This document shows positions 22,055 through 39,616 of a stretch of 64,000 nucleotides of DNA, piece after piece. Position 1 is the first letter of the stretch. Each line of letters opens with the position of its first letter. Below the pieces are notes generated by a model, which worked only from the letters and a program-made list of their open reading frames with translations, was not told the DNA's origin and did not search any database. The translations under genes and the position numbers were made by a program. Where the stretch lies: NCBI RefSeq assembly GCF_018449475.1, contig NZ_JAHCQH010000015.1, forward strand, positions 372,001-436,000, in the 5' to 3' direction. Source of the DNA: Ancylobacter radicis (lineage in GTDB: Bacteria; Pseudomonadota; Alphaproteobacteria; Rhizobiales; Xanthobacteraceae).

Positions 22055-22227
22055 GGTGCCGGCGCCACTGTTGCTAATTGTTTATCGTGAATGCCGGGCG
22101 ATGCACCCCAACCGCCTCGACACGGCATGGCCCCTCGTTTTACGATAATTCCTATTTCGCAATGGGTCTTCAACGTCTCGCTGGGTGCAGGCCAAGCAGC
22201 TGCGACGATCCCCTATTGGATATTTTG

Positions 22228-23502: not shown

Positions 23503-23503
23503 A

Positions 23504-24838
23504 TTGCTCGATCCTGATCCGTCGCGCGCGGCGCGCCTTAGCGATGCGGCGCGCCCTGGCGATGCCGCGGCCGCGCCCCGTCCCGTTCGCATCGCCATCG
23601 TGCTCAAGGGCTATCCACGCCTGTCCGAGACCTTCATCGCCCAGGAAATCCTGGAGCTGGAGCGGCGCGGCCTCACCTTCGACATCTGGTCGCTGCGCCG
23701 CCCGACCGACCGCTATCATCACCCGATGCATGAGGCGATCGCCGCCCGTCTGCTCTATCTACCGGAATATCTGAAGGACGATCCCGCCCGCGTCTGGAAG
23801 GGCCTTGTCCACGCCATACGCCATCTGCGCTTTCGCGAGCTGATGGGGGTCTTTCTGCGCGACCTCATCCGCGACCCGACGCCCAACCGGATGCGCCGGC
23901 TCGGCCAGGCCTGCGTGCTCGCGCGCGAAGTCGATCCCGCGATCGGCCATCTCCATGTGCATTTCCTGCACACGCCGGGCTCGGTGACGCGCTATGCCGC
24001 GCGGCTGACCGGGCGCAGCTTCTCCTTCTCCGCCCATGCCAAGGACATCTGGACCACCCCGGAATGGGAGCGCCGCGAGAAGATCGCGGACGCCGCCTGG
24101 GGCGTGACCTGCACCGCCGATGGCTGGCGCGAACTCACCCGCGTAGCCGGCAATGCAGGGGACAAGGTCGAGCTGGTCTATCACGGCCTCGATCTCGACC
24201 GCTTCCCGCCCCCGCCCCAGCGCGTGCGCACGGCGGATGGCAGCGACCCGGCGGACCCGGTGCGGCTGGTCGCGGTCGGCCGCGCCGTGGCCAAGAAGGG
24301 GTTCGACACGCTGCTCGACGCGCTGGGCCGCCTGCCGCCGACACTCCACTGGCGCCTCGTTCATATCGGCACCGGCCCGCTCATCGCCCCGCTGAAGGCG
24401 CAGGCGGAAAAGCTCGGCATTGCCGGGCGGATCGAGTGGCGCGGTAGTCAGGCACAGACGGCGGTGATCGCCGCGCTGCGCGCGGCCGATCTGTTCGTGC
24501 TGCCGAGCCAGCCGGGCGAGGATGGCGACCGCGACGGCCTGCCCAATGTCATCATGGAAGCGGCGACGCAGGCGCTACCCATCGTCTCTACGCGCTTTGC
24601 CGGCGTGCCGGAATTCGTCACCGATGGCGAGAATGGCCTGCTGGTGCCGCCGGCCGACGCCCCCGCTCTGGCGCAGGCGCTGGCGGCGCTGATCGCCGAT
24701 CCCGCCCGCCGCCGCGTGCTGGGCGCAGCGGCGCTGGCGCGGCTCAAGGCCGATTTCACCTTCGAGGCCGGCATCGACCGTCTGGAGAACCGGCTGCGCC
24801 AGTCGGCGGAGGCCATGAGCCTGCCGGCCGGGCGCTGA
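23504..24838 (+). CDS. Family 4 glycosyltransferase (WcaL/AmsK-like)
   Basis: 444 residues, starting at TTG 23504, 1 base after the previous stop, with GGGGG 6 bases upstream. GT-B fold: IAIVLKGYPRLSETFIAQEI at the N-terminus, HVHFLHTPGSVTRYAARLTG, FSAHAKDIW, VYHGLDLDRF, VGRAVAKKGFDTLL, and the nucleotide-sugar EX7E-type region DGLPNVIMEAATQALPIV. It resembles colanic-acid type GT4 transferases of exopolysaccharide clusters. It should add a sugar to a lipid-linked intermediate or another small acceptor in the cytoplasm. Confidence 0.88.
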   Translation: MLDPDPSRAARLSDAARPGDAAAAPRPVRIAIVLKGYPRLSETFIAQEILELERRGLTFDIWSLRRPTDRYHHPMHEAIAARLLYLPEYLKDDPARVWKGLVHAIRHLRFRELMGVFLRDLIRDPTPNRMRRLGQACVLAREVDPAIGHLHVHFLHTPGSVTRYAARLTGRSFSFSAHAKDIWTTPEWERREKIADAAWGVTCTADGWRELTRVAGNAGDKVELVYHGLDLDRFPPPPQRVRTADGSDPADPVRLVAVGRAVAKKGFDTLLDALGRLPPTLHWRLVHIGTGPLIAPLKAQAEKLGIAGRIEWRGSQAQTAVIAALRAADLFVLPSQPGEDGDRDGLPNVIMEAATQALPIVSTRFAGVPEFVTDGENGLLVPPADAPALAQALAALIADPARRRVLGAAALARLKADFTFEAGIDRLENRLRQSAEAMSLPAGR

Positions 24839-24842
24839 CCCG

Positions 24843-25961
24843 ATGCGCTGCCTGTTCCTCGCGCCGCTGAAATCCCCCGACCACCCTGTCCCCTCCGGCG
24901 ACCGCACCATGGCGCGGCTGTTCCTCAAACTGCTGCGCCGGCTCGGCTATGAGACGGCGCTGGCCTCGCACCTGCGCAGCTTCCACACCGATCCGGCGGC
25001 GGTCGACTGGGCGGCGCTGGAGCAGGAGGCGGCGCAAGAGGTCGAGCGCATCCTTGCCGCTACCGATCCCGCCGCGGTCGCCTGCGTCTTCACCTACCAC
25101 GTCTATTACAAGGCCCCGGACCTGATCGGCCCCGCCCTCGCAGCACGGCTCGGCGTGCCCTATGTGATCGCGGAAGCCTCCCGCGCCCCGAAACGCGCCA
25201 GCGGCCCGTTCGCGCCGGGCCATGCGCGGGCCGAGGCCGCGATCAATGCGGCGGCGCTCATTCTCGCCCTCACCGGCGCCGACCGCGAGGTGCTGGACCG
25301 GCTGCGCCCGCCGCATCAGCGTGTCGCCGATCTCAAGCCCTTTCTCGATCTGGCCGACTGGCCGCAGGCCGGTGCCTCTCCCAAGCCGCGCGGCGACGGC
25401 CCCGCCCGCCTCGTCACGCTGGCCATGATGCGGCCGGGCGACAAGCTCGCCTCCTATGGCCAGCTTGCGCAGGCCCTCACCAATCTCGAAGCCGATTGGG
25501 CACTCGACATCATCGGTGACGGGCCCGCGCGCCCGGAGGTCGAGGCCGCCTTTGCGCCCCTCGGCGACCGCGTCCGCTTCCATGGCGCGATCAGTGACCG
25601 TGCCGCACTCGGCGCCCTGTTCCATGCGTCCGATCTCTTCGTCTGGCCGGGCGTCAACGAGGCGTTCGGAGCCGCCTATCTGGAAGCGCAGGCGCATGGC
25701 CTGCCCTGCCTCGCCGCTTCCTATGGCGGCATTGCCGACGCGATGATCCCCGGCGAGACCGGCCTTCTCACCCCCGCCGGCGACATCCCTGCCCTGCGCG
25801 CCGCCTTGGCAGGGCTGATCGCCGATCCGGCCCGACGCCATGCCATGGGTGCGGCCGCCGCCCGCTTCATCGCCGCCGAGCGCGATCTTCCCGCCGCCGC
25901 CACCACGCTGGCCGCCGCCTTCCGCGCCTGCGACATACCCCTGCCGCAGGACCGTGCATGA
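24843..25961 (+). CDS. Family 4 glycosyltransferase
   Basis: 372 residues, 4 bases after the previous gene. Conserved GT4 features are the C-terminal donor site GDRVRFHGAISDRAALGALF, FVWPGVNEAFGAAYLEAQAHGLPCLAASYGG and an N-terminal SGDRTMARLFLKLL loop where many GT4 enzymes hold the acceptor. It overlaps the next gene by 4 bases (ATGA). Function within the cluster is unassigned; cytoplasmic, no signal peptide. Confidence 0.85.
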   Translation: MRCLFLAPLKSPDHPVPSGDRTMARLFLKLLRRLGYETALASHLRSFHTDPAAVDWAALEQEAAQEVERILAATDPAAVACVFTYHVYYKAPDLIGPALAARLGVPYVIAEASRAPKRASGPFAPGHARAEAAINAAALILALTGADREVLDRLRPPHQRVADLKPFLDLADWPQAGASPKPRGDGPARLVTLAMMRPGDKLASYGQLAQALTNLEADWALDIIGDGPARPEVEAAFAPLGDRVRFHGAISDRAALGALFHASDLFVWPGVNEAFGAAYLEAQAHGLPCLAASYGGIADAMIPGETGLLTPAGDIPALRAALAGLIADPARRHAMGAAAARFIAAERDLPAAATTLAAAFRACDIPLPQDRA

Positions 25962-27904
25962 CTGTGCCCATGACGACACCCCACGTGATGATCGCCGTCA
26001 CCCATCTGCTCGGCGTCGGCCATCTCGCCCGCATGGCGGCGGTCGGGCGGGCACTCGCCCGCGCCGGTTGGCGGGTGACGATCGCCTCCGGCGGCCGGCC
26101 CGCCGCCACGGTGAACACGCAGGGCTGCACCCTCGTTCAGCTTCCCCCGGTGCATTGCGTCGGGACGGATTTCTCCACCCTCTATGCCGCACCCGGCGTG
26201 CTGGCCGATGCCGCCACTTTCGCCACCCGCACGGACGCCCTTCTGGCCGCCTTCGACCACGCCGCGCCGGATGTGCTGATCACCGAGCTCTATCCGCTCG
26301 GCCGCCGCTCTCTGGCGCCGGAATTCGACGCGCTGCTCGCCCATGCCCGGAGCCGTCAGCCCCGGCCGGTGGTGCTCGGCTCGGTCCGGGACGTGCTGAA
26401 TCCACCCTCGCGGCCGGAGCGGGCGGAACAGGCGCTCGCCAAGCTTGGGATCTTTTATGACGGTGTGCTGTTCCACGGCGCCGCCGAGGTGGTGCCGCTG
26501 GGAGCGTCATGGCCGAGCAGCCCGGCGCTGGAGCGGCGGCTGATCGAGACCGGCTATGTGCATGATGGCGCGCGTGGCGCCGAGGCCGATAGCGGGACGG
26601 ACGGGACCGACGAGATCCTCGTCTCCGGCGGCGGTTCGGCGGCCGGTCTGCCGCTCGCGCGGCTGGCGCTGCAGGCCGCAACGCTCCTGCCGGAACGGCG
26701 CTGGCGGGTGCTGGTAGGCACCGCCGTCTCGCCCGAGGCCTTCGCGGCGCTCAATCGCCTTGCTCCCGCCCATGCGACGGTGGAGCGGGCGCGGCCGGAC
26801 TTTCCCGCCGTGCTCGCCCGCGCCGCGCTCTCGGTAAGCCAGGCCGGCTACAACACGGTGCTCGACCTCGCCGCGGCACAGGCCCGCGCCATCCTCGTGC
26901 CCTTCGCGGAAGGGGCCGAGAAGGAGCAGACCCTGCGCGCCGGCGAACTCGCCCAGCGCGGCCTTGCCCGCGTGCTGGCGCTGGAGACGCTGACGGCGCC
27001 GGCGCTGGCGGAGGCCGCCCGCGAACGCCTCGCCGCGCCCCGGCCGGACTGGTCCGCCATTGGCCGCGACGGGGCGGCGCGCACCGCGCAGGTGCTGACG
27101 GAGCAGCTCGCCCGGCGCCGCGCGGTGGACGCGGCATGGGGCAGGCTCGATGCCGTGCTGGCGCAGGCCCGCGCGCTGGGGCGCATGATTGACCTGTGGT
27201 GGCGTGACGACGATGCGATGGCGCCGACCCCGGCTCTGGAGAGCCTGCTTGCCCGCGCCGCCCGTTGGCAGGCCCCGCTGACTCTTGCCGTCATTCCCGC
27301 CCGCGCCCAGCCGGCGCTCGCCGCCCGGCTGTCCGAGATCGACAGGGTGGATGTGGCGGTGCACGGCTTCGCCCATGCCAACCACGCCCCCCCGACGGAC
27401 AAGAAGGCCGAGTTCGGCGCCCACCGCCTCACCGAGGTGATGATTGTCGAGGCGCAGAGCGCGTGCGAGCAGTTGAAAGAGCTGTTCGGAAGCCAGTTCC
27501 TCCCGGTCTTCGTACCGCCCTGGAACCGCATCGCCCCGGACCTGCTGCCGGCACTTCCCGGCGTGGGCTATCAGGCCGTCTCGACCTTCCGGCGCCGCAC
27601 CGCGCGCGAGGCCGCGCCCGGCCTCCTCGCCCTCAACACCCATTGGGACCCGATCGACTGGAAGGGCGGCGGCGGGCTCGCCGACGAAGCCGGGCTGATC
27701 GACCTGATGACGGATCTGATCGCCGGGGAACTCGCGGCCGCGCCGGGCGAACTGGAGCCGATCGGCCTGCTCACCCACCATCTCGTTCATGATGGCTGGA
27801 TCGACCGCTTCCTCGACGAGATGATCGACCGGCTTCTCGCCTCCGGTGCCGCGCGCTTCGTGTCGGCCCGCGCGGTGATCGCCGCTCAGGCCGGGCGCCG
27901 GTAG
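25958..27904 (+). CDS. Fusion: MurG-like glycosyltransferase + polysaccharide deacetylase-like domain
   Basis: 648 residues. Residues 1 to about 390 form a COG4671/MurG-type transferase (AVTHLLGVGHLARMAAVGRAL; SVSQAGYNTVLDLAAAQARAILVPFAEG). From about 405 a NodB-like carbohydrate esterase domain follows: an acidic metal motif in DLWWRDDDAM (about 411-420), the His pair in HGFAHANH (469-476) and VPPWNRI. It may transfer an N-acetylated sugar and deacetylate it. Neither half has an export signal, so both act in the cytoplasm, unlike most deacetylases. Its last 19 bases overlap the convergent methyltransferase gene. Confidence 0.85.
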   Translation: MTVPMTTPHVMIAVTHLLGVGHLARMAAVGRALARAGWRVTIASGGRPAATVNTQGCTLVQLPPVHCVGTDFSTLYAAPGVLADAATFATRTDALLAAFDHAAPDVLITELYPLGRRSLAPEFDALLAHARSRQPRPVVLGSVRDVLNPPSRPERAEQALAKLGIFYDGVLFHGAAEVVPLGASWPSSPALERRLIETGYVHDGARGAEADSGTDGTDEILVSGGGSAAGLPLARLALQAATLLPERRWRVLVGTAVSPEAFAALNRLAPAHATVERARPDFPAVLARAALSVSQAGYNTVLDLAAAQARAILVPFAEGAEKEQTLRAGELAQRGLARVLALETLTAPALAEAARERLAAPRPDWSAIGRDGAARTAQVLTEQLARRRAVDAAWGRLDAVLAQARALGRMIDLWWRDDDAMAPTPALESLLARAARWQAPLTLAVIPARAQPALAARLSEIDRVDVAVHGFAHANHAPPTDKKAEFGAHRLTEVMIVEAQSACEQLKELFGSQFLPVFVPPWNRIAPDLLPALPGVGYQAVSTFRRRTAREAAPGLLALNTHWDPIDWKGGGGLADEAGLIDLMTDLIAGELAAAPGELEPIGLLTHHLVHDGWIDRFLDEMIDRLLASGAARFVSARAVIAAQAGRR

Positions 27905-28386
27905 AGATGATAGCGCCCCTCGCGGGCGCCGGGCGGCAGCGCCACGCCCTCGCAGCCGGCAAGCTCCAGCGGCAGGTCGGACATGACGAGCCCGCCGGCC
28001 GCCATCAGCGGCGGCAGCAGGCGTGCCGACATGGCGGCGACCTGCCGGTTGCTCTCGCGGTCGAACGAGCCGAGATCGACATTGGCCAGCACCACGCGCC
28101 CGGCAAGGCGCGGGGCGAGCGGGGGCAGCGTCTGCTCGATCTCGCCGAGCATGAGATAATCGGGAGCCGGCTGGCAGTCGGGATAGGCCTTGTTCACCCG
28201 GTCGAAGACGAAGATCTCCCGCTCCGGCAGATGCCGGCGCAGATGATCGAAGGTGCGCCCGAGACCGAGCCCCAGCTCCACCACCGGCCCCGGCCGGTCG
28301 GCAATGGCGGCGAAGGCATAGGCGAGGCAGGCGTGCTGCGCCTCCAGGCGGTACAGCGTCTTCTCAAGGCGTGACAGGTCGGACAT
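27886..28386 (-). CDS. Small SAM-dependent methyltransferase (Methyltransf_17-like)
   Basis: 166 residues. The Rossmann motif VVELGLGLGRTFDHLRRHLP (about 35-54) matches the SAM-binding loop, with VFDRVNKAYPDC after the next strand and LANVDLGS further on. It resembles the short alphaproteobacterial family PF12692, whose substrate is unknown. It is the last gene of the long minus-strand unit, 17 bases after the OppC-like permease, and its end overlaps the glycosyltransferase fusion on the other strand. It could serve either system. Confidence 0.75.
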   Translation of the reverse strand: MSDLSRLEKTLYRLEAQHACLAYAFAAIADRPGPVVELGLGLGRTFDHLRRHLPEREIFVFDRVNKAYPDCQPAPDYLMLGEIEQTLPPLAPRLAGRVVLANVDLGSFDRESNRQVAAMSARLLPPLMAAGGLVMSDLPLELAGCEGVALPPGAREGRYHLYRRPA

Positions 28387-28403
28387 CGGTCGGGATCAAG
28401 GCC

Positions 28404-29600
28404 TCAGCGATAGGGATCGGCGGCGTCGCGCAGCCCGTCGCCGAGGAAATTGAAGGCGAGGATCACCACGATCACCGGCACCACCGGCAGGATCAGCCAG
28501 GGATAGAGCACGACGATATTGATGTTCTGCGCCTCGTTCAGCATCACGCCCCAGCTTGTGATGGGCGGACGCAGGCCGAGCCCGAGGAAGGACAGCGCGG
28601 TCTCGCCGAGGATCATCGAGGGAATGGCGATGGTCGCCATGGCGATGAGATGGCTCATGAAGCCGGGCACGAGATGGCGGAACACGATGCGCGGCGTGCG
28701 CGCGCCCATCAGCTGGGCGGCGACGACATAATCATCCTCGCGCAGCGACAGCAGCTTGGAGCGCACGGCGCGGGCGAGCCCGGTCCAGTCCATCAGCCCG
28801 AGGATCACCGTGATACCGAAATAGACCAGGATCGGGCTCCAGCTCGGCGGCATTATGGAGGAGAGCGCCAGCCAGAGCGGGATATGCGGCAGCGACTGCA
28901 CCACCTCGATGGCGCGCTGCACGACAAGATCGAACAGGCCGCCATAATAGCCGGCCAAGCCGCCGATCACGACGCCCAGCGAGAAGCTCACGGCAATGCC
29001 GATGAGGCCGATGGTGAGCGAGATGCGCGCGCCATAGATGAGGCGCGAGAGCATGTCGCGGCCGAGACGGTCGGTGCCGAGCAGGAACAGCGTGCCCCCC
29101 TCGCCCGGACACATCAGATGCACATTGCCCTCGATCAGCCCCCAGAACTGGTAGCTGTCGCCGCGGCAGAAGAAGCGCACGGGATAGATCCGGGCGGTGT
29201 CCTCGCTATAGGTCCGGCGCAGCGTGTTCATGTCGAGCTGGTAGTTCAGCCCATAGGTGAACGGCCCGACAAAGCTGCCCTCATGGAACAGGTGGATCGC
29301 CTGCGGTGGGCTGCGGATGAAGTCGATGTGGCGTTCCTGATAATTATAGGGTGCGAGAAACTCGCAGATCAGGATCGACGCATAGAGCACCGCCAGGAAG
29401 ATGCCGGAGGCGAGCGCAAGACGGTGGCGCTTGAACTTCCACCACATCAGCGTGAGCTGGGAGGCGAGGTGCACCCGCTCCTGCTGCCGCGTCATCGGCT
29501 CCATCGCATTGGGGTCGAACGGACCCGTGGCGACATAATGCGCCAGCGGCGCGCCGGGCGGCGGCAGGGCCGGCACGTCGGGGGAAACGGGCATGCTCAT
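28404..29600 (-). CDS. Peptide-type ABC transporter permease (OppC/DppC-like)
   Basis: 398 residues, longer than typical DppC (about 300) because of a roughly 150-residue loop between the first and second membrane segments that includes FFCRGDSYQFWG. The OppC signatures FLLGTDRLGRDMLSRLIYGARISL and ALSFLGLGLRPPITSWGVML are clear, with the coupling-helix region before it. It overlaps the OppB-like gene by 4 bases. Together they form the membrane channel of an importer for oligopeptides or similar molecules. Confidence 0.92.
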   Translation of the reverse strand: MSMPVSPDVPALPPPGAPLAHYVATGPFDPNAMEPMTRQQERVHLASQLTLMWWKFKRHRLALASGIFLAVLYASILICEFLAPYNYQERHIDFIRSPPQAIHLFHEGSFVGPFTYGLNYQLDMNTLRRTYSEDTARIYPVRFFCRGDSYQFWGLIEGNVHLMCPGEGGTLFLLGTDRLGRDMLSRLIYGARISLTIGLIGIAVSFSLGVVIGGLAGYYGGLFDLVVQRAIEVVQSLPHIPLWLALSSIMPPSWSPILVYFGITVILGLMDWTGLARAVRSKLLSLREDDYVVAAQLMGARTPRIVFRHLVPGFMSHLIAMATIAIPSMILGETALSFLGLGLRPPITSWGVMLNEAQNINIVVLYPWLILPVVPVIVVILAFNFLGDGLRDAADPYR

Positions 29601-30598
29601 TTCGTGCTGCCCCCCTGAAGCCGAATGCGCGGATCAAGAAAGGCGAGCGCGATGTCGGAGATCAGCACACCGACCACGGTGAGGCAGGACAGGAACAGCA
29701 GGAACGAGCCGGCCAGATACATGTCCTGGCTCTGCAAGGCGCGCAGCAGCAGCGGCCCGGTGGTCTGCAGCGAGAGCACGACGGCGGTGAGCTCCGAGCC
29801 CGAGACGATGCTCGGGAGAACGTCGCCAATATGCGAGACGAAGAAGTTGAGCGACATACGCAGCGGGTATTTGCGCAGCGCCTTGCCGGGCGGCAGGCCC
29901 TTGGCCTTGGCGGTCACGTAATACTGCTTCTGCAACTCGTCGAGCAGATTGGCGCGGATGGCGCGAACCATGGTCCCCGTGCCGCCGGCGCCGATGATGA
30001 TCACCGGTATCCACAGATGGGCGAGGATCGACTGCGCCTTCTCCCAGCTCATCGGCTGGTTGAAATAGACCGGGTCCATCAGCCCGCCGATGGAGAGCCC
30101 GAACCAGACATTGGCGAAATACATGAAGATCAGGGCGAGCAGGAAATGCGGGATGGCGATGCCCAGCAGGCCGAGAAAGGTCAGCCCGTAATCGCCCCAG
30201 CTATATTGGTGGGTGGCCGAATAGATGCCGATCGGAAAGGCGACGATCCAGGTCATCAGGATGGTGCAGACCGACACCAGAACGGTGAGGGCGAGGCGCT
30301 CGCCCACGACATCGCGCACCGGCATTTCATACTCGAAGGAGTAGCCGAAATCGCCCTGCACGAAGCCGGTGATCCAGAGGAAATACCGTTCGATGATCGG
30401 TTTGTCGAAGCCATATTCGCGGCGCAGGAACTCGATCCGGCTGGTATCGGCCTTCTCGCCCTGGGCAGCCATTTCCGCCACATAGGTCTCGAAATAGTCG
30501 CTCGGCGGAAGCTCCATGACGGTGAAGATCAGCGCGCTGGTCACGAGCAGCGTCGGGATCATGAGGAGGATGCGACGGAGGATGTAGCGCAGCAGCAT
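29597..30598 (-). CDS. Peptide-type ABC transporter permease (OppB/DppB-like)
   Basis: 333 residues with six membrane segments. It opens with the OppB motif MLLRYILRRILLMIPTLLVTS, and DYFETYVAEMAAQGEK and FLRREYGFDKPIIERYFLW form the first periplasmic loop. The coupling helix region is AIRANLLDELQKQYYVTAKAKG. It is the partner of the OppC-like protein and follows the binding-protein gene by 2 bases. The substrate is unknown. Confidence 0.92.
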   Translation of the reverse strand: MLLRYILRRILLMIPTLLVTSALIFTVMELPPSDYFETYVAEMAAQGEKADTSRIEFLRREYGFDKPIIERYFLWITGFVQGDFGYSFEYEMPVRDVVGERLALTVLVSVCTILMTWIVAFPIGIYSATHQYSWGDYGLTFLGLLGIAIPHFLLALIFMYFANVWFGLSIGGLMDPVYFNQPMSWEKAQSILAHLWIPVIIIGAGGTGTMVRAIRANLLDELQKQYYVTAKAKGLPPGKALRKYPLRMSLNFFVSHIGDVLPSIVSGSELTAVVLSLQTTGPLLLRALQSQDMYLAGSFLLFLSCLTVVGVLISDIALAFLDPRIRLQGGSTK

Positions 30599-30600
30599 CG

Positions 30601-32535
30601 TCAGTCTCTCATGACATCGAGCTTGGACACACCGTCATCGAGCCAGAACGTGTCCGGCAGATAGATGCCGAAATAGGCGCCGGGCTCGAAGCTGTAGATG
30701 CCGACATCGGGCACGTTGCGCAGCTTGTCGCTGACGATCACCGGCTGCGACAGGCGATTGACGATGCCGATGGTGAAAACCTGCTCGGCATTGATCTCCA
30801 GCATGCGCGACCAGATGCTGGCCCTCTCCTCGGTCGTGACGGAGTGGCGCCAGCTCTTGGCCAGGGCGATCAGTTCCTGCGCCGCCGGCAGGTCGGGCTT
30901 CTCGCCCTCGCGGCCGGCACTGTCGACATATTGCCCCCAGAGCGGCCACTGGAACTGCATGGAATTGGCCGGCGCCAGCGCCTCCGGCGACATGTCCGGT
31001 CCGGGAAGCGCGTTGTCCATGCCGGGCCACACCGCCATCATCACATTGCCGGCGATGACGCCCCGGCGCAGCAGGTCGCGCTGCGTGCCGCGCACGAACA
31101 GCTTGATCCCGATTTTCGCCCAGTCAAAGCCGACGAGTTCGAGGATGTCGGTCTCCTCCATATTGTCGGCGGAGGTCTCGACCGTGATCTCGGCCCGCCG
31201 CCCGTCCGGCAGCAGGCGGAAGCCCTCGTCGTCGCGCTTGTCCAGCCCGGCGGCGTCGAGCAGCTGGTTGGCGAGCTTTGGATCATATTGCGACCAGGCC
31301 CGGTCGTATTTTTCCTTGTAGAGCGTGCTGGCGGGGATGACGGTGTTGGCGCCTTCATGGCCGAGCCCGAAGAAGATCACCTGATTGATGTCGTGCCGGT
31401 TGATGGCGACGGAAAGGGCGCGGCGGACATTGACGTCGCGCAGCAGCCGGCGCCAGACCTCGTCCTTCACGTTGAGATTGGGGATCAGCGCGACAAAGGC
31501 CCCCTCGCCCCGTTCCCACAGCCGCACCTTGTAATGGCCGCGCGCCTCGCTGGCCTTGAGGAAGGTGTAGTCGGCGAAGGAGATGTAGCGCGCCTGCAGA
31601 TCCGAGCCGCCCGCCGCCACCTTGGCCGGAATCAGCGAGGAGGTGCCGATCGACATGGTGATCTCGTCGATATAGGGCAGTTGCCGCCCTTCCTCGTCGA
31701 CCCGGTGATAGAATGGGTTGCGGCGGAACACGAAGAATTCCGCCGGCGGCCGGGTGAGCGGAATCCACGGACCGAGCAGCGGCAGCTCGGGATTTTCCGG
31801 CCGGTAGGAGCGCGCCATGCGGTCATGCAGCGCGGTCCAGTCCTTCACCCGCTCCAGCTTGATGAGCCCCGACAGCTTCAGCGGATCGGCGTATGTCTGG
31901 TCGAACAGCTTCATGTAATGGGCGGGCATGGCGATGACGAGCGGCTGGGCGCCGGCCAGCGCCGGCAGGAAGCCGGGATTGGGCGTCGACCAGCTGTAGC
32001 GGACCGTCGTTTCGTCGATCACCTCGAAGCGCGCCGGCTCGCCCAGAACCTTCATCTGCAGCGGCGGACCGCCGGGGCTGAGCCGCTCGCTATTGGCGAC
32101 GTCCTCCCACCAGTAGCGGAAATCCTCGGCGGTGAAGGGATGCCCGTCCGACCAACGGTGCCCCTTGCGCAGATGCAGGGTGAAGATGCGCCCCTCCTCG
32201 ACATCGACGCTTTCGAGTATGTCGGGGACGAGATTGCCCTTGGTGTCGAACACCACCAGACGGGCATAGCCGTAGATGGTGATGAAGCGGATGTCGCGCT
32301 GGTCGCCCATCAGCATGCGCAGCGTGCCGCCATAATGGCCGGGCTCGCGACCCATCGCCGGCAGGTCGATCACGCGGGGATGTTCGGGAAGCCGTTCGGC
32401 AAGCGGCGGCAGGCGCCCTTCGAGAATGGCCCGCACGAAGACCGGCGGCTCAAGCGAGAGGTCGCGCCCGCGCGCTTCGACACCCACAATGGCGGCAATC
32501 AGGAAAAGCAGCGAAAGAAGCCAGCGCGCCATCAT
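30601..32535 (-). CDS. ABC transporter substrate-binding protein, family 5
   Basis: 644 residues from ATG 32535, with GAGGG 5 bases upstream. A signal peptide (ARWLLSLLFLIAAIVGVEA) leads into an SBP family 5 fold: FTLHLRKGHRWSDGHPFTAEDF, NPNL-type hinge segments and RALSVAINRHDINQVIFFG. It is about 100 residues longer than OppA/DppA. Such proteins bind peptides, opines, glycosides or nickel complexes in the periplasm. It is encoded between the fused ATPase and the two permeases; no ligand can be assigned. Confidence 0.9.
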   Translation of the reverse strand: MMARWLLSLLFLIAAIVGVEARGRDLSLEPPVFVRAILEGRLPPLAERLPEHPRVIDLPAMGREPGHYGGTLRMLMGDQRDIRFITIYGYARLVVFDTKGNLVPDILESVDVEEGRIFTLHLRKGHRWSDGHPFTAEDFRYWWEDVANSERLSPGGPPLQMKVLGEPARFEVIDETTVRYSWSTPNPGFLPALAGAQPLVIAMPAHYMKLFDQTYADPLKLSGLIKLERVKDWTALHDRMARSYRPENPELPLLGPWIPLTRPPAEFFVFRRNPFYHRVDEEGRQLPYIDEITMSIGTSSLIPAKVAAGGSDLQARYISFADYTFLKASEARGHYKVRLWERGEGAFVALIPNLNVKDEVWRRLLRDVNVRRALSVAINRHDINQVIFFGLGHEGANTVIPASTLYKEKYDRAWSQYDPKLANQLLDAAGLDKRDDEGFRLLPDGRRAEITVETSADNMEETDILELVGFDWAKIGIKLFVRGTQRDLLRRGVIAGNVMMAVWPGMDNALPGPDMSPEALAPANSMQFQWPLWGQYVDSAGREGEKPDLPAAQELIALAKSWRHSVTTEERASIWSRMLEINAEQVFTIGIVNRLSQPVIVSDKLRNVPDVGIYSFEPGAYFGIYLPDTFWLDDGVSKLDVMRD

Positions 32536-32543
32536 GTCCGCCC

Positions 32544-34475
32544 TCACGCCGCCGTCAGGTCGCGGGCGGTGCAGCCCGCGTCGGCCAGCACGCAATGGCC
32601 GCCGCCGAGGTCGATCAGGCCGAGGCGGCCGGGCGCGGCGGGGCGGAATTCCTCCGGCCAGCTGGCCGGATCGGAGGCGCCGCCGGTCGGCACGCAGCTG
32701 GCGAAATCGAGCCGCCGGTCGAGGTCCGGCAGCGGCACGGCCTTGAGCAGGGTGCGCGTATAGGGATGCGCCGGCCGGGTGAAGATCGCCTCGCGCGGGC
32801 CGATCTCGACGAGGCGCCCGCGCGCCATCACCGCGATCCGCGCCGCCATGTAGTGCACCACGGCGAGATTGTGCGAGATGAAGAAATAGGTCAGCCCGAG
32901 CGAGGACTGAAGGTCCTTCAGCAGGTTCAGCACCTGCGCCTGCACCGACACGTCGAGCGCGGAGACCGGCTCGTCGCAGATGATGAGATCCGGGTTGAGC
33001 GCGAGCGCGCGGGCGATGCCGATGCGCTGGCGCTGCCCGCCGGAAAAGCTATGCGGGTAGCGGCTGAGGAAGCGCGGATCGAGCCCGACGCATTCCATCA
33101 GTTCCATCGCCCGGCGCTTCTGCTCAGTGTCGGACAGGCGGTTCTGGATGATCATCGGCTCGCGGATGATGTCGAGCACCGTCATGCGCGGCGAGAGCGA
33201 GGACACCGGGTCCTGGAAGATCATCTGCATGCGCGGGCGGAAGGCGCGCAGCTGCGCCTCGCCCAGCGCCAGCACATCGACCGGACCCGTGCCGTCATTG
33301 AACACGACCGAGCCGGCATCGGCGCTGCGCGAGCGCATCAGCATGTGACCGACCGTGGTCTTGCCGGAGCCGCTCTCGCCCACCAGCCCGAGGCACTGGC
33401 CTCGCGCCACGTCGAAGCTTACATCCTCCACCGCGACGACGCGGTTATTCTTCGCGCCATAGCTCTTGCGCAGGTTCCGCACGCTGAGCAGCGGCGGCGT
33501 GTTGGCGGTGATCTCGCGCCGGGCAAGGCTCTGGGGCAGCACCGGCGCCACCTCGCGCAGCGCGACCAGCCGCTCGCCCGGCTTCATGTCGAAATCGGGC
33601 GAGGCCTTCAGCAGGGCCTTGAGATAGGGATGCTGCGGGCGGCGGAACACGTCGTCCACCGTGCCGGCCTCCATCACCTGCCCGCGATAGACCACCACCA
33701 CCTCGTCGGCCATGTTGGCGACCACGCCGAGATCATGGGTGATGAGCAGGATCGCCATGCCCATCTCGGCCTGAAGCTGCTTCATCAGCTTCAGCACCTG
33801 CGCCTGAATGGTCACGTCGAGCGCGGTGGTCGGCTCGTCGGCGATCAGCAGCGCCGGCTGGCAGATCAGCGCCATGGCCAGCATGGCGCGCTGGCGCAGC
33901 CCGCCGGACAGCTCGAACGGGTACTGGTCATAGGAGCGGTGCGGATCACGGAAGCCGACAAGGCCGAGCATGTGCTCGGTCACCCGCCGGGCCTCCCGCC
34001 GTGGCTTGCGCTGGTGAAGCTGAAGCGCCTCCTCGATCTGGTTGCCGATCGTGTGCACCGGCGAGAGCGAGGACATGGGCTCCTGGAAGATCATGCCGAT
34101 CCGCCCGCCGCGCAGCTTGCGGATGGCGCGCCCGTCGCGCGGCAGGGTGGCGATGTCGACGCCCGCGCCCGCCTTGGCGGGATCGGCGAACAGGATGCGG
34201 CCGGCCTCGATCACGCCGTTGCGCGGCAGCAGGCCCATCACCGCCTGCGAGATGACGGTCTTGCCCGATCCGCTCTCGCCGACCAGCGCGACCGTCTTGC
34301 CGGCCGGCACACGCAGCGAGATGCCCTTGACGACCTCGGTGAGCTGGCCATGGGTGGCGAAGGAGAGGTGAAGATCCTCGATGCGCAGGACATCTGTGCG
34401 CAGAACGTCCGTGCGCAGCCCGTCCGTGCCCGGCGGCCTTGTTTCCGGCCGGATCGCCCGCCCCACGTCCTGCAT
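32544..34475 (-). CDS. Fused OppD-OppF ABC ATPase
   Basis: 643 residues from ATG 34475 (GTG 34487 is possible, but its purine-rich stretch abuts the codon). Two complete ATPase modules are joined: first Walker A GESGSGKT, signature [10 protein letters not shown] and [13 protein letters not shown]; second [24 protein letters not shown] and [13 protein letters not shown]. Both keep the catalytic Glu. The OppD/OppF C-terminal extensions ([10 protein letters not shown]) are present. It powers the importer encoded downstream. Three near-identical 15-base units (34383-34427) encode a small repeat near the N-terminus. Confidence 0.93.
34383..34427. repeat. Three tandem 15-base units inside the fused ATPase gene
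   Basis: GCGCAGGACATCTGT, GCGCAGAACGTCCGT and GCGCAGCCCGTCCGT follow one another in frame and encode a short repeated stretch (L-R-T-D-V-type) before the first ATPase domain. Confidence 0.8.
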
Positions 34476-34510
34476 CGTTTCCCGCACTCCCCCTGCCCTC
34501 GCGCCGCGCG

Positions 34511-36250
34511 TCAGGAGTGCGCGGGATTGAGCATGCCCAGCCTTAGCTTGCCTGCCATGATCGCGTCGAGCGTGGTCACGTCCGGTATCGCATAGGCGGA
34601 GACACTCATGCCGTTCGAATCCAGCGTCATCTCGCGCTTCGTCAGATGCGAAAAATCAAAGCCGGAAGCCTCCGCCGTCTCCGTCGACACCACATAGTCG
34701 GCCACGAACTCCTTCGACGCCGCCTCAAGCGCGACCGCCACCGCCACCGTATTGCCGATCGCTCGGATCAGATTGTCAGAGACCCCGTCGCCGACACGGG
34801 CCAGCACGATGGAGCCGGTATGGATGCCGATACCGGCGCGGACCGGGATCGGCAGCGCCCCGCGCATCTCCGAATTCAGCAGTTCCAGCACGCGGGTCAT
34901 GTCCCGTGCCGCCCGCAGCGCGGCGCGGGCGCCGCCGGCCCGCTTGTCGGAGGCGTCGAACACCGCCATCAGCCCGTCGCCATACATCTGGTCAATGCGC
35001 CCGCCATGGCTCTCCACCGCCTGGGTCATCTCGGAGGAGAAGCGATTGACCAGCACGGCGATCTCATAGGGAAGCCGGTTATGGGTGAGCGTGCTGAAGG
35101 CCCGCAGGTCCAGCACCAGAACGGTGGCGTCGCGCTCGATGGCCCATTCCCGCGCCTCCGCGTCCTGATCGCCGCCCAATTGCCGGCCGAGCACCGGCAT
35201 CAGCACGCGCACCGACAGATCGTGCTCGGGGCGGATCTGGCAGGCGAGCCGCACGCTGCCCGGCGCGCCGATGCTGGCCAGCACCGCGCGTTCGGCACCG
35301 AAGGGCTGGGGCAGGGTCTCGGCGCCGGAGAGGATCTGCACCCGGCAGGTCGAGCAGCGCCCGCGCCCGCGGCAGGTGGACGGGTGCGGTATGTGATACA
35401 TGCGGCTCGCCTCCAGCAGCGAGGTGCCGCACGGCACCTCCACCGGGCCATAGCCGCGATAGGTGACGGTCACGGTGTGGACCACCCGCCGGCGAATGTA
35501 GAAGACGCCGATCAGGCCGACAAAGCCGAGCGCGAAACCGGCCACGCCGCTGTAGACCAGCGTGCTCGCGCGATCGAGGCCGGCGATCTGTTCCGGCGTG
35601 CGCGCGGCCGGCGCCGGGCGGTGTATCGCCTCGCGGCCGCCGGCGACGAAGCCCGCCAGGGCAAGGACCGGGATCAGCACCGCCAGCACCAGCCCGCCGA
35701 CCCGCACATTGCGGTACCAGTGCATGTAGCGCAGCGCGTGGTGCATCCCGATGACGCCATGGCTCCAGGAGACGACCAGCAGCATCGACTGCGAGAACAG
35801 CGCGGCGGGAAACAGGTTGTACAGAATGGCGTGATAGCTGATGTCCGCGTCGAACCAGGAACTGGCGACCCGCGTGTTCAGCACATGGCCGGCGACCAGA
35901 AGCGGGATCGCCAGGCCGGAGACGATCTGCCACGCCTCATCCTTCGGCATCCGCCAGGTCCGGCGCAGCGCGATGCGGTAGGAGGCGAGCACCATATGGG
36001 TGAGCGCGGCACCATAGAGCAGCACAGTGCCCGGCCAGGACTGCCAGAGCAGCCAGCGCCAGTGCTGCGCATATTCCATCGCGCCCACGCCGAAGATGCC
36101 GACGGCATGGTTGAGCAGATGCGTCAGCACGAAGGCGAACAGGATGATCCCCGACCACAGCCGTGCCATGCACGCCCAGGGCAGATCGCGGAGATCGCCG
36201 CGTGCCTCGACGGCCGTGTGGCGTGAAGGGCTGGTCGAGGTCAGCGACAT
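34511..36250 (-). CDS. Membrane heme-anchor / [2Fe-2S] ferredoxin / class III cyclase protein (CyaC-like)
   Basis: 579 residues. Residues 30-255 hold six hydrophobic segments rich in membrane histidines (HLLNH, THM, GHVLN, YHAILYN, SHGVIGMHH), like the succinate-dehydrogenase-type diheme anchor of Sinorhizobium CyaC. A [2Fe-2S] ferredoxin domain follows (Cys293, 299, 302 and 337), then a class III cyclase domain (375-560) with metal Asp381 and Asp425 (YGDGLMAVF). The usual Asn and Arg of the VNxAxRL motif are Ala503 and Ala507 (GNTVAVAVALE), so catalysis is doubtful. It should sense redox state at the inner membrane. It follows a cyclic-nucleotide-binding gene by 9 bases. Confidence 0.88.
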   Translation of the reverse strand: MSLTSTSPSRHTAVEARGDLRDLPWACMARLWSGIILFAFVLTHLLNHAVGIFGVGAMEYAQHWRWLLWQSWPGTVLLYGAALTHMVLASYRIALRRTWRMPKDEAWQIVSGLAIPLLVAGHVLNTRVASSWFDADISYHAILYNLFPAALFSQSMLLVVSWSHGVIGMHHALRYMHWYRNVRVGGLVLAVLIPVLALAGFVAGGREAIHRPAPAARTPEQIAGLDRASTLVYSGVAGFALGFVGLIGVFYIRRRVVHTVTVTYRGYGPVEVPCGTSLLEASRMYHIPHPSTCRGRGRCSTCRVQILSGAETLPQPFGAERAVLASIGAPGSVRLACQIRPEHDLSVRVLMPVLGRQLGGDQDAEAREWAIERDATVLVLDLRAFSTLTHNRLPYEIAVLVNRFSSEMTQAVESHGGRIDQMYGDGLMAVFDASDKRAGGARAALRAARDMTRVLELLNSEMRGALPIPVRAGIGIHTGSIVLARVGDGVSDNLIRAIGNTVAVAVALEAASKEFVADYVVSTETAEASGFDFSHLTKREMTLDSNGMSVSAYAIPDVTTLDAIMAGKLRLGMLNPAHS

Positions 36251-36259
36251 GGTGCGCCG

Positions 36260-36784
36260 TCAGTGAACGGGCGTATTGGAAGAGGGGGCCGGCGCGGCGA
36301 TCTTGCGGCCCGCATCGACCGCGGGCGTGCCGGTCGGCAGACGCTGCACGAGCTGGGCGCAGATATTGTTCAGATCCATGATCTGCCGGCCAAGCTCGCT
36401 CATCACCGCATGGTTGAACGGCGCGGATTCCCGCAGGAGCTGCAGGAACGGCTCGCGGTCGATCCGCAGCGCGGTGATGGTGGTCTCGGCGGTGATGGTG
36501 GCCATCCGGTTCTGGTCGCACAGCACGCCGGCTTCGCCCAGCAGCGCGCCGCGCACATGCTCGGCGAAGTCGATCACGCCGTTCACCGTGTTGAGCGAGA
36601 CCTTGAACTGGCCCTCCAGCACCACATAGACGGCATCGGAGGTATCGCCTTGCGCATAGATGACCTCGCCGGGGTGGAACACCACGCGGTCGGCGATCAT
36701 CGCCAGCAGCTTGAGCTTGGAGCTCTCAACCTTATGAAACATCCGGAACTTCTGGAGCGACCGGACTTCATCTTCGATGGTCAT
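36260..36784 (-). CDS. Cyclic-nucleotide-binding domain protein without DNA-binding domain
   Basis: 174 residues, a single CRP-type cNMP-binding domain (about 10-135): FHPGEVIYAQGDTSDAVYVVLEG and a phosphate-binding cassette GEAGVLCDQNRMAT with Glu84, Arg93 and Thr96 kept, so cyclic nucleotide binding looks feasible. A helical tail and a Pro/Ala-rich end follow; there is no helix-turn-helix. It is coupled to the ABC-like gene (ATGA overlap) and lies next to the cyclase-like gene. It probably acts by protein contact rather than as a transcription factor. Confidence 0.85.
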   Translation of the reverse strand: MTIEDEVRSLQKFRMFHKVESSKLKLLAMIADRVVFHPGEVIYAQGDTSDAVYVVLEGQFKVSLNTVNGVIDFAEHVRGALLGEAGVLCDQNRMATITAETTITALRIDREPFLQLLRESAPFNHAVMSELGRQIMDLNNICAQLVQRLPTGTPAVDAGRKIAAPAPSSNTPVH

Positions 36785-39513
36785 TTCACGGCCTCCTGAG
36801 GTGACGGCGCCGGGACGGGCGTCTCCACGCTCTGTTCGGGCGCCGTCGCCTCGGCGGCGCCCCTGCGCTCGATTCCGGTGAGTTTCGCCCCTTCGAACGT
36901 CATCACCAGATCGAACGCACTTAGATCATCATCGTTCGACTGCGCGGCAATGACGGTTTTCCCGGACATCGCCTCGAAAATATTACTCATGATCATATGC
37001 GCCTCTGCCGCTCCGAAGCTAGAGAGGGCGCCATCGAGAATGAGAATGTCCGGCCGGCGCAGCATGGCGCGCCCCAGCTGGACGGTGACGCGCTGCTGCG
37101 GCGAGAGCAGCCGGCCGCCGGGCCCGGCCTCCTGGTCGAGGCCGCGCGAGACCACGAAGGCCTCCAGATCGAGTTCGCCCAGCATCTCCGCCGCCGCGAC
37201 GACGATCTTGTCGCGCATATGCGCCTTGCCGTAGCGCACGCGGCCGAACAGCAGGTTGTCGCGGATCGAGGCGGCGGGCATCAGCCGGCCGGGATCGTAG
37301 AACTCGATCTCCCCCGCATCCGCCGCCGGCAGGAATTCGCGGAAGCTGGCCCGCGCCCGCAGCACGCGCGCGACCAGCTGGTCGTCGATCAGATTGAGCC
37401 GGTGCTGCGGCTCGACATACATCAGCGCGTAGCCGACCAGCTTGTCGCGCAGCTCCGCCGAGAACTGGCGCCGCTGGCCGCGCTGCCAGGCGACCTGCAC
37501 CTGCGGCCACAGATCGCCCAGCTCCGCCTCGTCGATGAAGGAATAGCGTTCGCGCAGCGGGTTGTCGGCGGCGAGGCCCTGAAAGGCTTCCGCCACCGTC
37601 TCCACCATCTTCAGGCCGATGCCGGTGAGCGGGCCGACCAGCGCCTCGGCGGCGATGATCGAGCGCACGAACGGGTCATTGGCGAGGTTTTCCGGCGCGA
37701 AACGCTTGCCGATCGAGACTCCGAACAGCAGATTCTCGCCGATCGAGGCGCTGGTGTTGAACTGGTTCGGGGTGAAGGTCTCGACATAGCTGCCCATGCC
37801 GCGCTCGTTGAAGCGGGCATGGATCGCCGTGCGGGCTTGCAGCATCCGGGTCGCCACGCCCTCGTCGAGTTCGTCGCCCAGACGGCTGCTCATGCCCACC
37901 CGGAAGATGTCCTCATAGCCCCGCACGACGCGCAGCGCCTCAATGATCGCGCCGTTGAGCGCCTGCGGCCCCTCGATGCCGAAGCCGCGATAATCGATCC
38001 AGTCGGCATCCGGGGAGACGGTGGGATTGTCCGTCATCCGCGCCTCGTCGCGCCAGTAGCGGGCCCAGACGTCCTTCGGCTCCTCCTCGGGCGGCGCCGC
38101 CCGGCGCAGCGCCAGGCAGAGATTGTCGCGGATCGTGCCGGACATGATGTAGGGCTCGCCGGAGACATAGAGCATCACCGCGCTCGCCTGCGCGTCGGTC
38201 ATCGTGCCGATCTCGTGGCTGCCGATGGTGACGCTGCCCTGATAATCGGTGATCTGGCGGCCGAGCACCTTGGGCAGCACGTCGCGCGCGCTCCCGGTCG
38301 AGCCGACCAGCGCCACCCGCGCCGGGCGGGCGATGGCGGCGGACATGCGGTCGACCTGTACCATGCCGCGCCCGTTCACCACGCGCAGCCCGACCAGGGT
38401 GATCGGTGTCTCCGAAGGGATCGGCGCCGGCGGCTCGGCCGGCTCCTCCGGCATCATGAATTCCTTGGAGAAGGCACCGACCACCTGCTCGTATTTCACC
38501 GTCACGTCGGCCCGCTGCTGGTCCCAGTCGATCAGTTCCTTGATCGGGGTCGGCAGGTCGCGATAGGCGGCGATCACGGCCACCAGCTGGCCGATGTCGA
38601 GCCGGCCCTGCAAGGCGAGATAGCCGCCCAGCGTGTAGAAGACGAAGGGGGTGAGCTGGGCCAGCAGGTTGTTGAGATATTTGACCGCGAATTTGCGCCG
38701 GTAGAGCCGCAGCCGGATGTCGAACAGCGTGCCGAGCCGCTTGCCGATCTCCGAGGCGGTAAAGCCGGTGACGCCGAACACATGCAGCGCCGGAACCGCC
38801 TCCATCATCTCGCCGATGCGCCCGGCCAGCACGCGCGATTCGATCTGCCGCATCCGCCCGAGCCGGATCTGCTCGCGGCGCAGATGCGGGATGACGATGC
38901 CCTGCACCAGGATCAGCGCCAGCGCCAGCGTTCCCAGCCACAGATTCTGCACCAGGATGAAGGCCATGGCGGTCAGCGCCTGGGTGCCGAGGAAGGCCGG
39001 GGTGATGAAGGCCTCGCCGAAGAAGCCGCCGATCGGCTCCACCTCGTCCTTGATCATCGAGGTGACTTCGGCCGATTTGGTGGTGCGCACATCCTCCGGG
39101 CGAAAGCGCATGGCGAGCGCGAACAGCTCGAAGCGCAGGCGCCGCAGCATCCGCTCGCCGAGCACGCCCTTGCGGATGTTGATGACGTATTTGAACCAGC
39201 CATTGATCAGCGTGAGCACGAGGAAAACCATGCTCAGCGCGAACAGATAGGGCACCTGGGCTAGCATCAGCCCATCGGTGACATGCCAGCTCCAGCCGCC
39301 GAGGAAATCGGGCAGGGACAAAGTGATGTCGAACAGGCGGGCAGTGGTCTCGCCATGGGCGAAGACATCGCCCTGGATCGCCTCGTTGACGATGCGCTTG
39401 GGCACATCGAGCGACCACCAGTAAAACGGCAGCGAAAACAGCACGAAACACAGCACGATGAGCTGCTCGCGCCGGCTGTGCCGCCAGACATACCGAAAGA
39501 AGTTAGCGGCCAA
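36781..39513 (-). CDS. ABC-exporter-like protein with degenerate nucleotide-binding domain
   Basis: 910 residues from TTG 39513. Residues 1-345 resemble a type I exporter membrane domain (about six TM segments, GRIGEMMEAVPALHVFG). The ATPase part (370-880) is broken at nearly every motif: Walker A GSTGSARDV (404-412) lacks Lys, the signature is LSPQQ (803-807), Walker B ILILDGALS has Gly828 for the catalytic Glu, and the switch His is Gln858. A roughly 300-residue insertion separates Walker A from the signature and holds repeats of the IRDNLLFG segment. ATP-driven transport is unlikely; a scaffold or sensor role is possible. It heads the eight-gene unit. Confidence 0.85.
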   Translation of the reverse strand: MAANFFRYVWRHSRREQLIVLCFVLFSLPFYWWSLDVPKRIVNEAIQGDVFAHGETTARLFDITLSLPDFLGGWSWHVTDGLMLAQVPYLFALSMVFLVLTLINGWFKYVINIRKGVLGERMLRRLRFELFALAMRFRPEDVRTTKSAEVTSMIKDEVEPIGGFFGEAFITPAFLGTQALTAMAFILVQNLWLGTLALALILVQGIVIPHLRREQIRLGRMRQIESRVLAGRIGEMMEAVPALHVFGVTGFTASEIGKRLGTLFDIRLRLYRRKFAVKYLNNLLAQLTPFVFYTLGGYLALQGRLDIGQLVAVIAAYRDLPTPIKELIDWDQQRADVTVKYEQVVGAFSKEFMMPEEPAEPPAPIPSETPITLVGLRVVNGRGMVQVDRMSAAIARPARVALVGSTGSARDVLPKVLGRQITDYQGSVTIGSHEIGTMTDAQASAVMLYVSGEPYIMSGTIRDNLCLALRRAAPPEEEPKDVWARYWRDEARMTDNPTVSPDADWIDYRGFGIEGPQALNGAIIEALRVVRGYEDIFRVGMSSRLGDELDEGVATRMLQARTAIHARFNERGMGSYVETFTPNQFNTSASIGENLLFGVSIGKRFAPENLANDPFVRSIIAAEALVGPLTGIGLKMVETVAEAFQGLAADNPLRERYSFIDEAELGDLWPQVQVAWQRGQRRQFSAELRDKLVGYALMYVEPQHRLNLIDDQLVARVLRARASFREFLPAADAGEIEFYDPGRLMPAASIRDNLLFGRVRYGKAHMRDKIVVAAAEMLGELDLEAFVVSRGLDQEAGPGGRLLSPQQRVTVQLGRAMLRRPDILILDGALSSFGAAEAHMIMSNIFEAMSGKTVIAAQSNDDDLSAFDLVMTFEGAKLTGIERRGAAEATAPEQSVETPVPAPSPQEAVK

Positions 39514-39616
39514 GGCCTTTACGCCCTTCGTGTGGAAAGCCTAAGATTTTGACCGTCATAAATAGGTGCGCCGCCTCTCACGCGCATCGGCGATCACAGA
39601 ATGATGACAGGCTAGC

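Follow-up and report, generated by a model that had tools for sequence, protein, structure and literature searches.

What kind of system is encoded when a redox-sensing, cyclase-like protein stands in one run of genes with a cyclic-nucleotide receptor, an exporter-like membrane protein and a peptide-type importer? The question is raised by a locus of Ancylobacter radicis, examined here within a stretch of 64,000 nucleotides (positions 372,001 to 436,000 of contig NZ_JAHCQH010000015.1) that is called the window throughout. The reading we prefer, to which about an even chance is given, is that the window holds the Ancylobacter version of a widespread Hyphomicrobiales glycan cluster with a cyclic-nucleotide-controlled module, whose cyclase has here turned into a redox pseudocyclase.

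Layout and conservation of the unit

Eight minus-strand open reading frames had been reported by the initial annotation at 27886-39513, and the ORF list places them there. The unit starts with a pseudo-ABC exporter (36781..39513, 910 aa, TTG start; ABC_membrane and weak ABC_tran in Pfam), in which an exporter-type membrane domain is joined to a degenerate nucleotide-binding domain (NBD) with a large insert. It is followed by a single-domain cyclic-nucleotide-binding (CNB) protein (36260..36784, 174 aa; cNMP_binding) and by a CyaC-like redox protein (34511..36250, 579 aa; Fer2 and Guanylate_cyc) that combines six transmembrane helices (6TM), a [2Fe-2S] domain and a class III cyclase domain. Further along lie an OppD-OppF type fused ATPase with two ABC domains (32544..34487; two ABC_tran stretches and oligo_HPY), a family 5 solute-binding protein (SBP; SBP_bac_5) at 30601..32535 from an inner ATG, its longest listed ORF starting at 32595, an OppB-type and an OppC-type permease (29597..30598 and 28404..29600; both BPD_transp_1), and a SAM methyltransferase (27886..28386; Methyltransf_17), whose Pfam family also occurs in the corresponding cluster of Rhizobium etli. 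The gene assignments first proposed are backed by Pfam in all eight cases, apart from the 6TM heme part. The first three genes supply the elements expected of a sensor, a receptor and a partner in the membrane.

If each ORF is taken from its longest listed start, the genes are separated by -4, 9, 23, -52, 2, -4 and 17 bases. Inner ATG codons are visible near 34475 for OppDF and near 32535 for the SBP, and by using them 23 becomes 35 and -52 becomes 8, which recovers the reported spacing of -4, 9, 35, 8, 2, -4 and 17. Promoters or terminators that would split the unit were sought in a sequence scan, which showed nothing at the gene junctions; promoter-like sites numbered 2 against 1.6 expected and terminator-like sites 7 against 3.9 expected (sd 2.2), the three minus-strand ones among the latter lying inside genes.

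The gene order across relatives, proposed as a check on the unit, finds both halves as neighbours throughout the genus carriers and in parts of other families. The complete set of eight, with order and strand unchanged, is present in 13/13 further genomes of the genus that have a full-length cyclase. Outside the genus, the eight genes are in order in one genome of family f35 (L065), seven of them, without the methyltransferase, in family f42 (L066), while two loci of family f52 hold the pseudo-ABC, CNB, cyclase, OppDF and a partial SBP before the contig end (L070) and, on a short contig, cyclase, OppDF, SBP and OppB (L068). Conservation of the eight-gene order exceeds chance. The cyclase, the pseudo-ABC and the SBP each have close orthologues in an identical set of 14 of the 30 genus genomes, the block being absent from the other 16; since adjacent genes are inherited together, this co-occurrence shows one block rather than independent associations.

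The importer and its glycan neighbourhood

The initial annotation had also read the remaining genes as a complete importer. A full Opp/Dpp-type set is indeed present, with a family 5 SBP, two BPD_transp_1 permeases and an OppD/OppF ATPase. What did not stand is the picture of the unit as a sensor plus an importer and nothing else, because it is part of a larger cluster with glycosyltransferases, UDP-glucose dehydrogenase and a polysaccharide lyase. Four plus-strand glycosyltransferase genes (22078..27904) converge on the unit, namely one of GT28_C type (22078-23502), two of GT1/GT4 type (23504-24838 and 24843-25961) and a fourth (25958-27904) for which GT28_C is the sole Pfam match; the last two stand beside the unit in 13/13 genus loci. 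On the other side, a polysaccharide lyase (PF14099; 39617..40639, plus strand) diverges from the unit and is kept in 11/13 genus loci, and a UDP-glucose/GDP-mannose dehydrogenase (41136..42488, minus strand) is near it in 13/13. The spacer between pseudo-ABC and lyase (39514-39616) is short and divergent; blocks around ATCATGCTAG..GTCATCAT and GTGATC are similar in the lyase-bearing genus relatives and possibly mark a shared control region.

As to substrate, neither the SBP nor the two permeases pass any cut-off of the curated NCBIfam substrate models. The cut-offs of some models, among them nickel and opine ones, are exceeded by the fused ATPase, perhaps as its two domains add up.

Most unfused pseudo-ABC loci have genes predicted to encode glycosyltransferases, an Opp-type importer or both nearby. 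By using thresholds set by us (OppB or OppC at 50% identity, or SBP at 45%, for an Opp orthologue; at least 35% for a glycosyltransferase), 75 unfused loci gave an Opp orthologue in 42 (18 families), a glycosyltransferase in 55, either in 61 and neither in 14; outside family f1 the count for either is 48/62. The 32 cyclase loci without a pseudo-ABC gave Opp in 2, a glycosyltransferase in 1 and either in 2, and of these two loci one, L068, lies on a fragmentary contig, and the other, L099, has a pseudo-ABC elsewhere on its contig. No Opp or glycosyltransferase orthologue was found at these thresholds in the 13 loci with a fused pseudo-ABC. Among 72,556 plasmid records the pseudo-ABC family is present in 261, mostly from Rhizobium (144) and Sinorhizobium (80), and R. 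etli CFN 42, R. etli CIAT 652 and Sinorhizobium meliloti RCAM1750 hold cyclase, OppDF-SBP-permeases, glycosyltransferases, pseudo-ABC and CNB together. On one Ruegeria and one Methylobacterium plasmid no annotated cyclase or glycan genes stand beside the ABC protein, in a gene table that is incomplete. A DUF3095 protein lies inside the R. etli cluster (L176:532-1707), and for the redA/redB annotation in R. etli CIAT 652 no matching paper was found in the open-access literature.

These counts bear on the idea that importer and sensor trio are independent and merely lie side by side, the trio serving the glycosyltransferases. The Opp genes of other families have another position or orientation or are absent, glycosyltransferases outnumber Opp orthologues among the unfused loci, and four loci of family f50 (L067, L069, L071 and L072) have the trio with no Opp genes behind it. 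However, the genes form a single run in every full-length genus locus, in L065 and, less the methyltransferase, in L066, and the 18 families with Opp orthologues near a pseudo-ABC also speak for a connection. Independence is judged unlikely, albeit a serious contender.

The pseudo-ABC protein and its CNB partner

Across the loci compared, a predicted ABC-exporter-type protein without ATPase residues is almost always paired with or fused to a CNB domain and is often found close to a class III cyclase. The Walker A Lys is present in 0/89 rows (the window and 88 loci) and Glu at the catalytic position in 5/89, the window NBD being without it; signatures are variable, LSPQQ in the window and some near consensus elsewhere (LSAGQ, LSSGQ). 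Judged by these residues, the ABC protein of the unit can probably not pump. Its exporter fold is indicated by ABC_membrane, by profile matches to solved exporters and by Foldseek matches, global matches to solved ABC proteins being weak (query-normalised TM at most 0.39). In the predicted structure (mean pLDDT 85.8) the membrane part looks like that of an exporter, and the NBD contains an insert, for the most part helical, at about 480-735. Three IRDNL-like stretches give a hint of internal repetition.

The 88 pseudo-ABC loci come from 76 genomes of 31 families. In 73 loci the CNB is encoded next to the pseudo-ABC and in 13 it forms the C-terminal part of the same protein, together 86/88. The exceptions are L069, where tblastn does find a CNB, and L134, where a search of the 1.3 kb that remain up to the contig start gave none. 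The stretch includes a class III cyclase in 66/88; 28 of the loci had been chosen by cyclase, and among the 60 chosen by pseudo-ABC alone a CNB accompanies 59 and a class III cyclase 38. In the order sample, the pseudo-ABC is found at E <= 1e-60 in 93/297 genomes, part of which the 88-locus set covers.

The fused form is a second, paralogous pseudo-ABC (L116-L122, L124-L127, L174 and L175; 13 loci, four families), with a large class III cyclase nearby in 11/13 (open frames of 634-1136 aa). In L116-L120 the cyclase farther from the fused protein (1041-1136 aa frames) reads D-Q-D-A-R, without Lys and Asn; catalysis may have been lost a second time there. An apparent fusion of CNB and cyclase (732- and 722-aa CNB rows at L078 and L088) was rejected, since a trimmed profile found no ORF with both; the long rows most likely come from a match that was extended beyond the gene end.

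A putative redox sensor with intact ligands and an altered cyclase domain

In the Ancylobacter lineage the predicted CyaC-like cyclase has its redox ligands intact and its catalytic residues replaced. In the sensor, His44, His85, His122 and His164 of the 6TM part and Cys293, Cys299, Cys302 and Cys337 of the [2Fe-2S] part are invariant in 61/61 aligned rows. The 6TM part is a putative heme anchor as in CyaC-type cyclases, an assignment that draws on the invariant His and on the helices of the AF2 model, Pfam giving no match; the Fer2 match and the four Cys point to a putative [2Fe-2S] domain. The model (mean pLDDT 88.7) has a class III cyclase fold, and in the fold search the target-normalised TM to Spirulina CyaC (1wc1) was 0.84-0.86, the best 50 matches being all cyclases, with no succinate dehydrogenase anchor among them.

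The class III set consists of two metal-binding Asp, an adenine-binding Lys, a transition-state Asn and an Arg. In alignments to solved cyclases, the window protein reads D-Q-D-A-A for metal Asp, Lys, metal Asp, Asn and Arg; the set is thus incomplete, with Lys, Asn and Arg all replaced. The messenger-making domain seems, from these residues, to have lost its catalytic equipment, and the earlier description of a signalling module with a nucleotide domain is not supported as it stood: ordinary cAMP output is unlikely because the key catalytic residues are missing.

The history of this loss was followed in a tree of 334 N-terminal columns from which the cyclase domain was left out, so that the trait itself is not in the tree. 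The window protein and 21 others form one clade (support 99/99; five families) in which Lys and Asn are missing in 22/22 rows and Arg in 15/22; both metal Asp are kept in 20/22, L063 and L064 lacking the second Asp as well. These losses are one clade and one event, not repeated tests. Eight cyclases beside ABC-CNB pairs in other families keep all five residues, as does L130, and on this ground the loss looks secondary. Outside the clade, L102, L104-L108 and L110 are without Lys and keep Asn and Arg, and L100 is without Asn and Arg. The cyclase domain is not decaying freely, since its pairwise dN/dS is 0.14-0.35 in five comparisons among 13 genus rows. Retention of the metal Asp in most of the clade means that a weak or altered cyclase is possible.

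The only PF00211 domain of the host genome is the one in the unit, and a search for classes I and III found no class I cyclase there. Among 30 genus genomes PF00211 is found in 14, the module carriers, seven of which have one match only.

The receptor shows a change of its own. The window CNB keeps the cassette Glu and Arg and departs from the canonical R[AST]A[ST][AVI], a motif present in 0/20 CNBs of the dead-cyclase clade, 45/54 other adjacent CNBs and 12/13 fused ones. As Glu is kept in 19/20 and Arg in 20/20 of the clade CNBs, the protein may still bind a nucleotide. Motif loss and cyclase loss fall in one clade, and their co-change is suggestive but does not amount to a statistical test. 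The pairwise dN/dS of the CNB is 0.13-0.25 (five comparisons among the 13 genus rows), and the host genome encodes four CNB proteins.

Two readings would keep a messenger. A different product or an altered chemistry, such as a cyclic pyrimidine of Pycsar type that the CNB would bind, might be considered, as PADLOC PycC models match the cyclase domain (best 8.2e-18), Pyc effector models match the CNB protein (best 1.2e-12) and the solved cUMP synthase 7r65 is among the fold matches. But these PADLOC matches may reflect shared domains only, neither the pseudo-ABC nor the methyltransferase has one, the locus sits in a conserved glycan cluster, and a change of base would by itself hardly explain the loss of the transition-state Asn; this reading is judged improbable. 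Ordinary adenylate cyclase activity of CyaC type, in which the quinone state sets cAMP, the CNB binds it and the substitutions are tolerated, would fit the class III fold, the metal Asp retained in 20/22 clade rows and an architecture that is the same as that of S. meliloti CyaC (PMC10463352). Against it stand the replaced Lys, Asn and Arg of the window, the replaced Lys and Asn of all 22 clade rows and the changed CNB motif of the same clade, and we regard it as quite improbable. That cyclase and ABC protein are relics heading for loss, as the lost residues and the 16 block-free genus genomes might suggest, is very improbable, given that all three proteins are under purifying selection in the five dN/dS comparisons made, that the frames are open in 14 carriers and that the redox ligands are invariant.

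Variants of the sensor were also seen. At G198:C1:2364947-2365936, G150:C70:60745-61761 and G087:C3:102957-103967, open frames of 384-498 aa match the 6TM and [2Fe-2S] part and nothing further, perhaps redox parts without a cyclase; those of G198 and G150 lie about 10 kb from the main locus. Family f20 (G065, G132, G160, G207, G263 and G294) has matches to the 6TM part only, in open frames of 260-380 aa. At L136, L137, L140, L147-L149, L152, L154-L161, L163-L166 and L171 the cyclase close to the ABC-CNB pair is without the heme part; its residues are D-K-D-N-K, Lys taking the place of Arg.

Proposed mode of action

For the glycan cluster with a cyclic-nucleotide-controlled module, an ancestral mode can be pictured in which the cyclase would make cAMP or another cNMP, the CNB subunit would bind it, and the pseudo-ABC would change shape and thereby switch an envelope-glycan or import function. 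In the sister families a cNMP would act on the CNB subunit of the pseudo-ABC, a pairing of proteins that the ABC-CNB fusions make likely. In the window, the redox input can hardly give cAMP, which leaves a contact relay or an altered product: the quinone or [2Fe-2S] redox state may pass by protein contact from the pseudocyclase to the CNB/pseudo-ABC pair, the nucleotide signal being absent or altered. The output is probably on the glycan or its fragments, given the neighbouring genes, and the importer would most likely take up fragments tied to the same glycan. In its strongest form, offered tentatively as a possibility that we favour less than the general reading, this is a relay of pseudoenzymes, where a diheme/[2Fe-2S] sensor would move a dead cyclase, which would in turn contact the CNB of an inactive ABC exporter, a diffusible messenger playing no part, all descended from a nucleotide-using version kept in sister families.

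An ABC protein free of ATPase residues, with a CNB subunit and often near a cyclase, represents an apparently undescribed module that is also found in model rhizobia. In alphaproteobacteria, the pseudo-ABC/CNB pair could serve cyclic nucleotides as a direct target in the membrane. Sister families combine one type of redox sensor with either a live or a dead cyclase, which makes the possibility of messenger-free redox signalling through a cyclase domain directly testable.

Comparison with known systems

SUR and CFTR are ABC proteins that act as a regulator or a channel. The proposed likeness of the pseudo-ABC to them lies in the ABC-exporter fold, the impaired ATPase and a regulatory use, and KATP/SUR chains are among its fold matches; unlike them, it has no Walker A Lys in 89 rows, a large insert and a CNB subunit. 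Pycsar resembles the window in pairing a cyclase with a CNB-domain partner, as reflected in the PADLOC model matches, and differs in that the partner here, a pseudo-ABC exporter, belongs to a glycan cluster and gave no match to a known Pycsar effector in the PADLOC models.

In the open-access literature no description of this gene composition or of such a pseudocyclase was found, in line with the initial remark that no described system of this composition was known; the sensor protein by itself has a described relative in CyaC (PMC10463352). S. meliloti CyaC (SMc01818) is a quinone-responsive diheme-B/[2Fe-2S] adenylate cyclase that senses the quinone redox state via two hemes b, forms cAMP and acts together with two regulators, Clr and CycR (PMC10463352). 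Both proteins unite 6TM with conserved His, the [2Fe-2S] Cys set and a class III domain, the features of CyaC being taken from its published description (PMC10463352), and the window protein differs by the absence of Lys, Asn and Arg. The neighbours differ too, with a TetR-type CycR for CyaC and CNB, pseudo-ABC and Opp genes in the window.

A close parallel also exists at the level of the whole cluster. Gene order and strands in R. etli CFN 42 plasmid p42e (L176) and S. meliloti RCAM1750 (L177) differ from those of the window, and the R. etli cyclase (447 aa) has a Guanylate_cyc match and, unlike the window protein, no Fer2 match. Nevertheless, both clusters share with the window a cyclase, OppDF-SBP-two permeases, glycosyltransferases, a nucleotide sugar dehydrogenase, the pseudo-ABC and the CNB.
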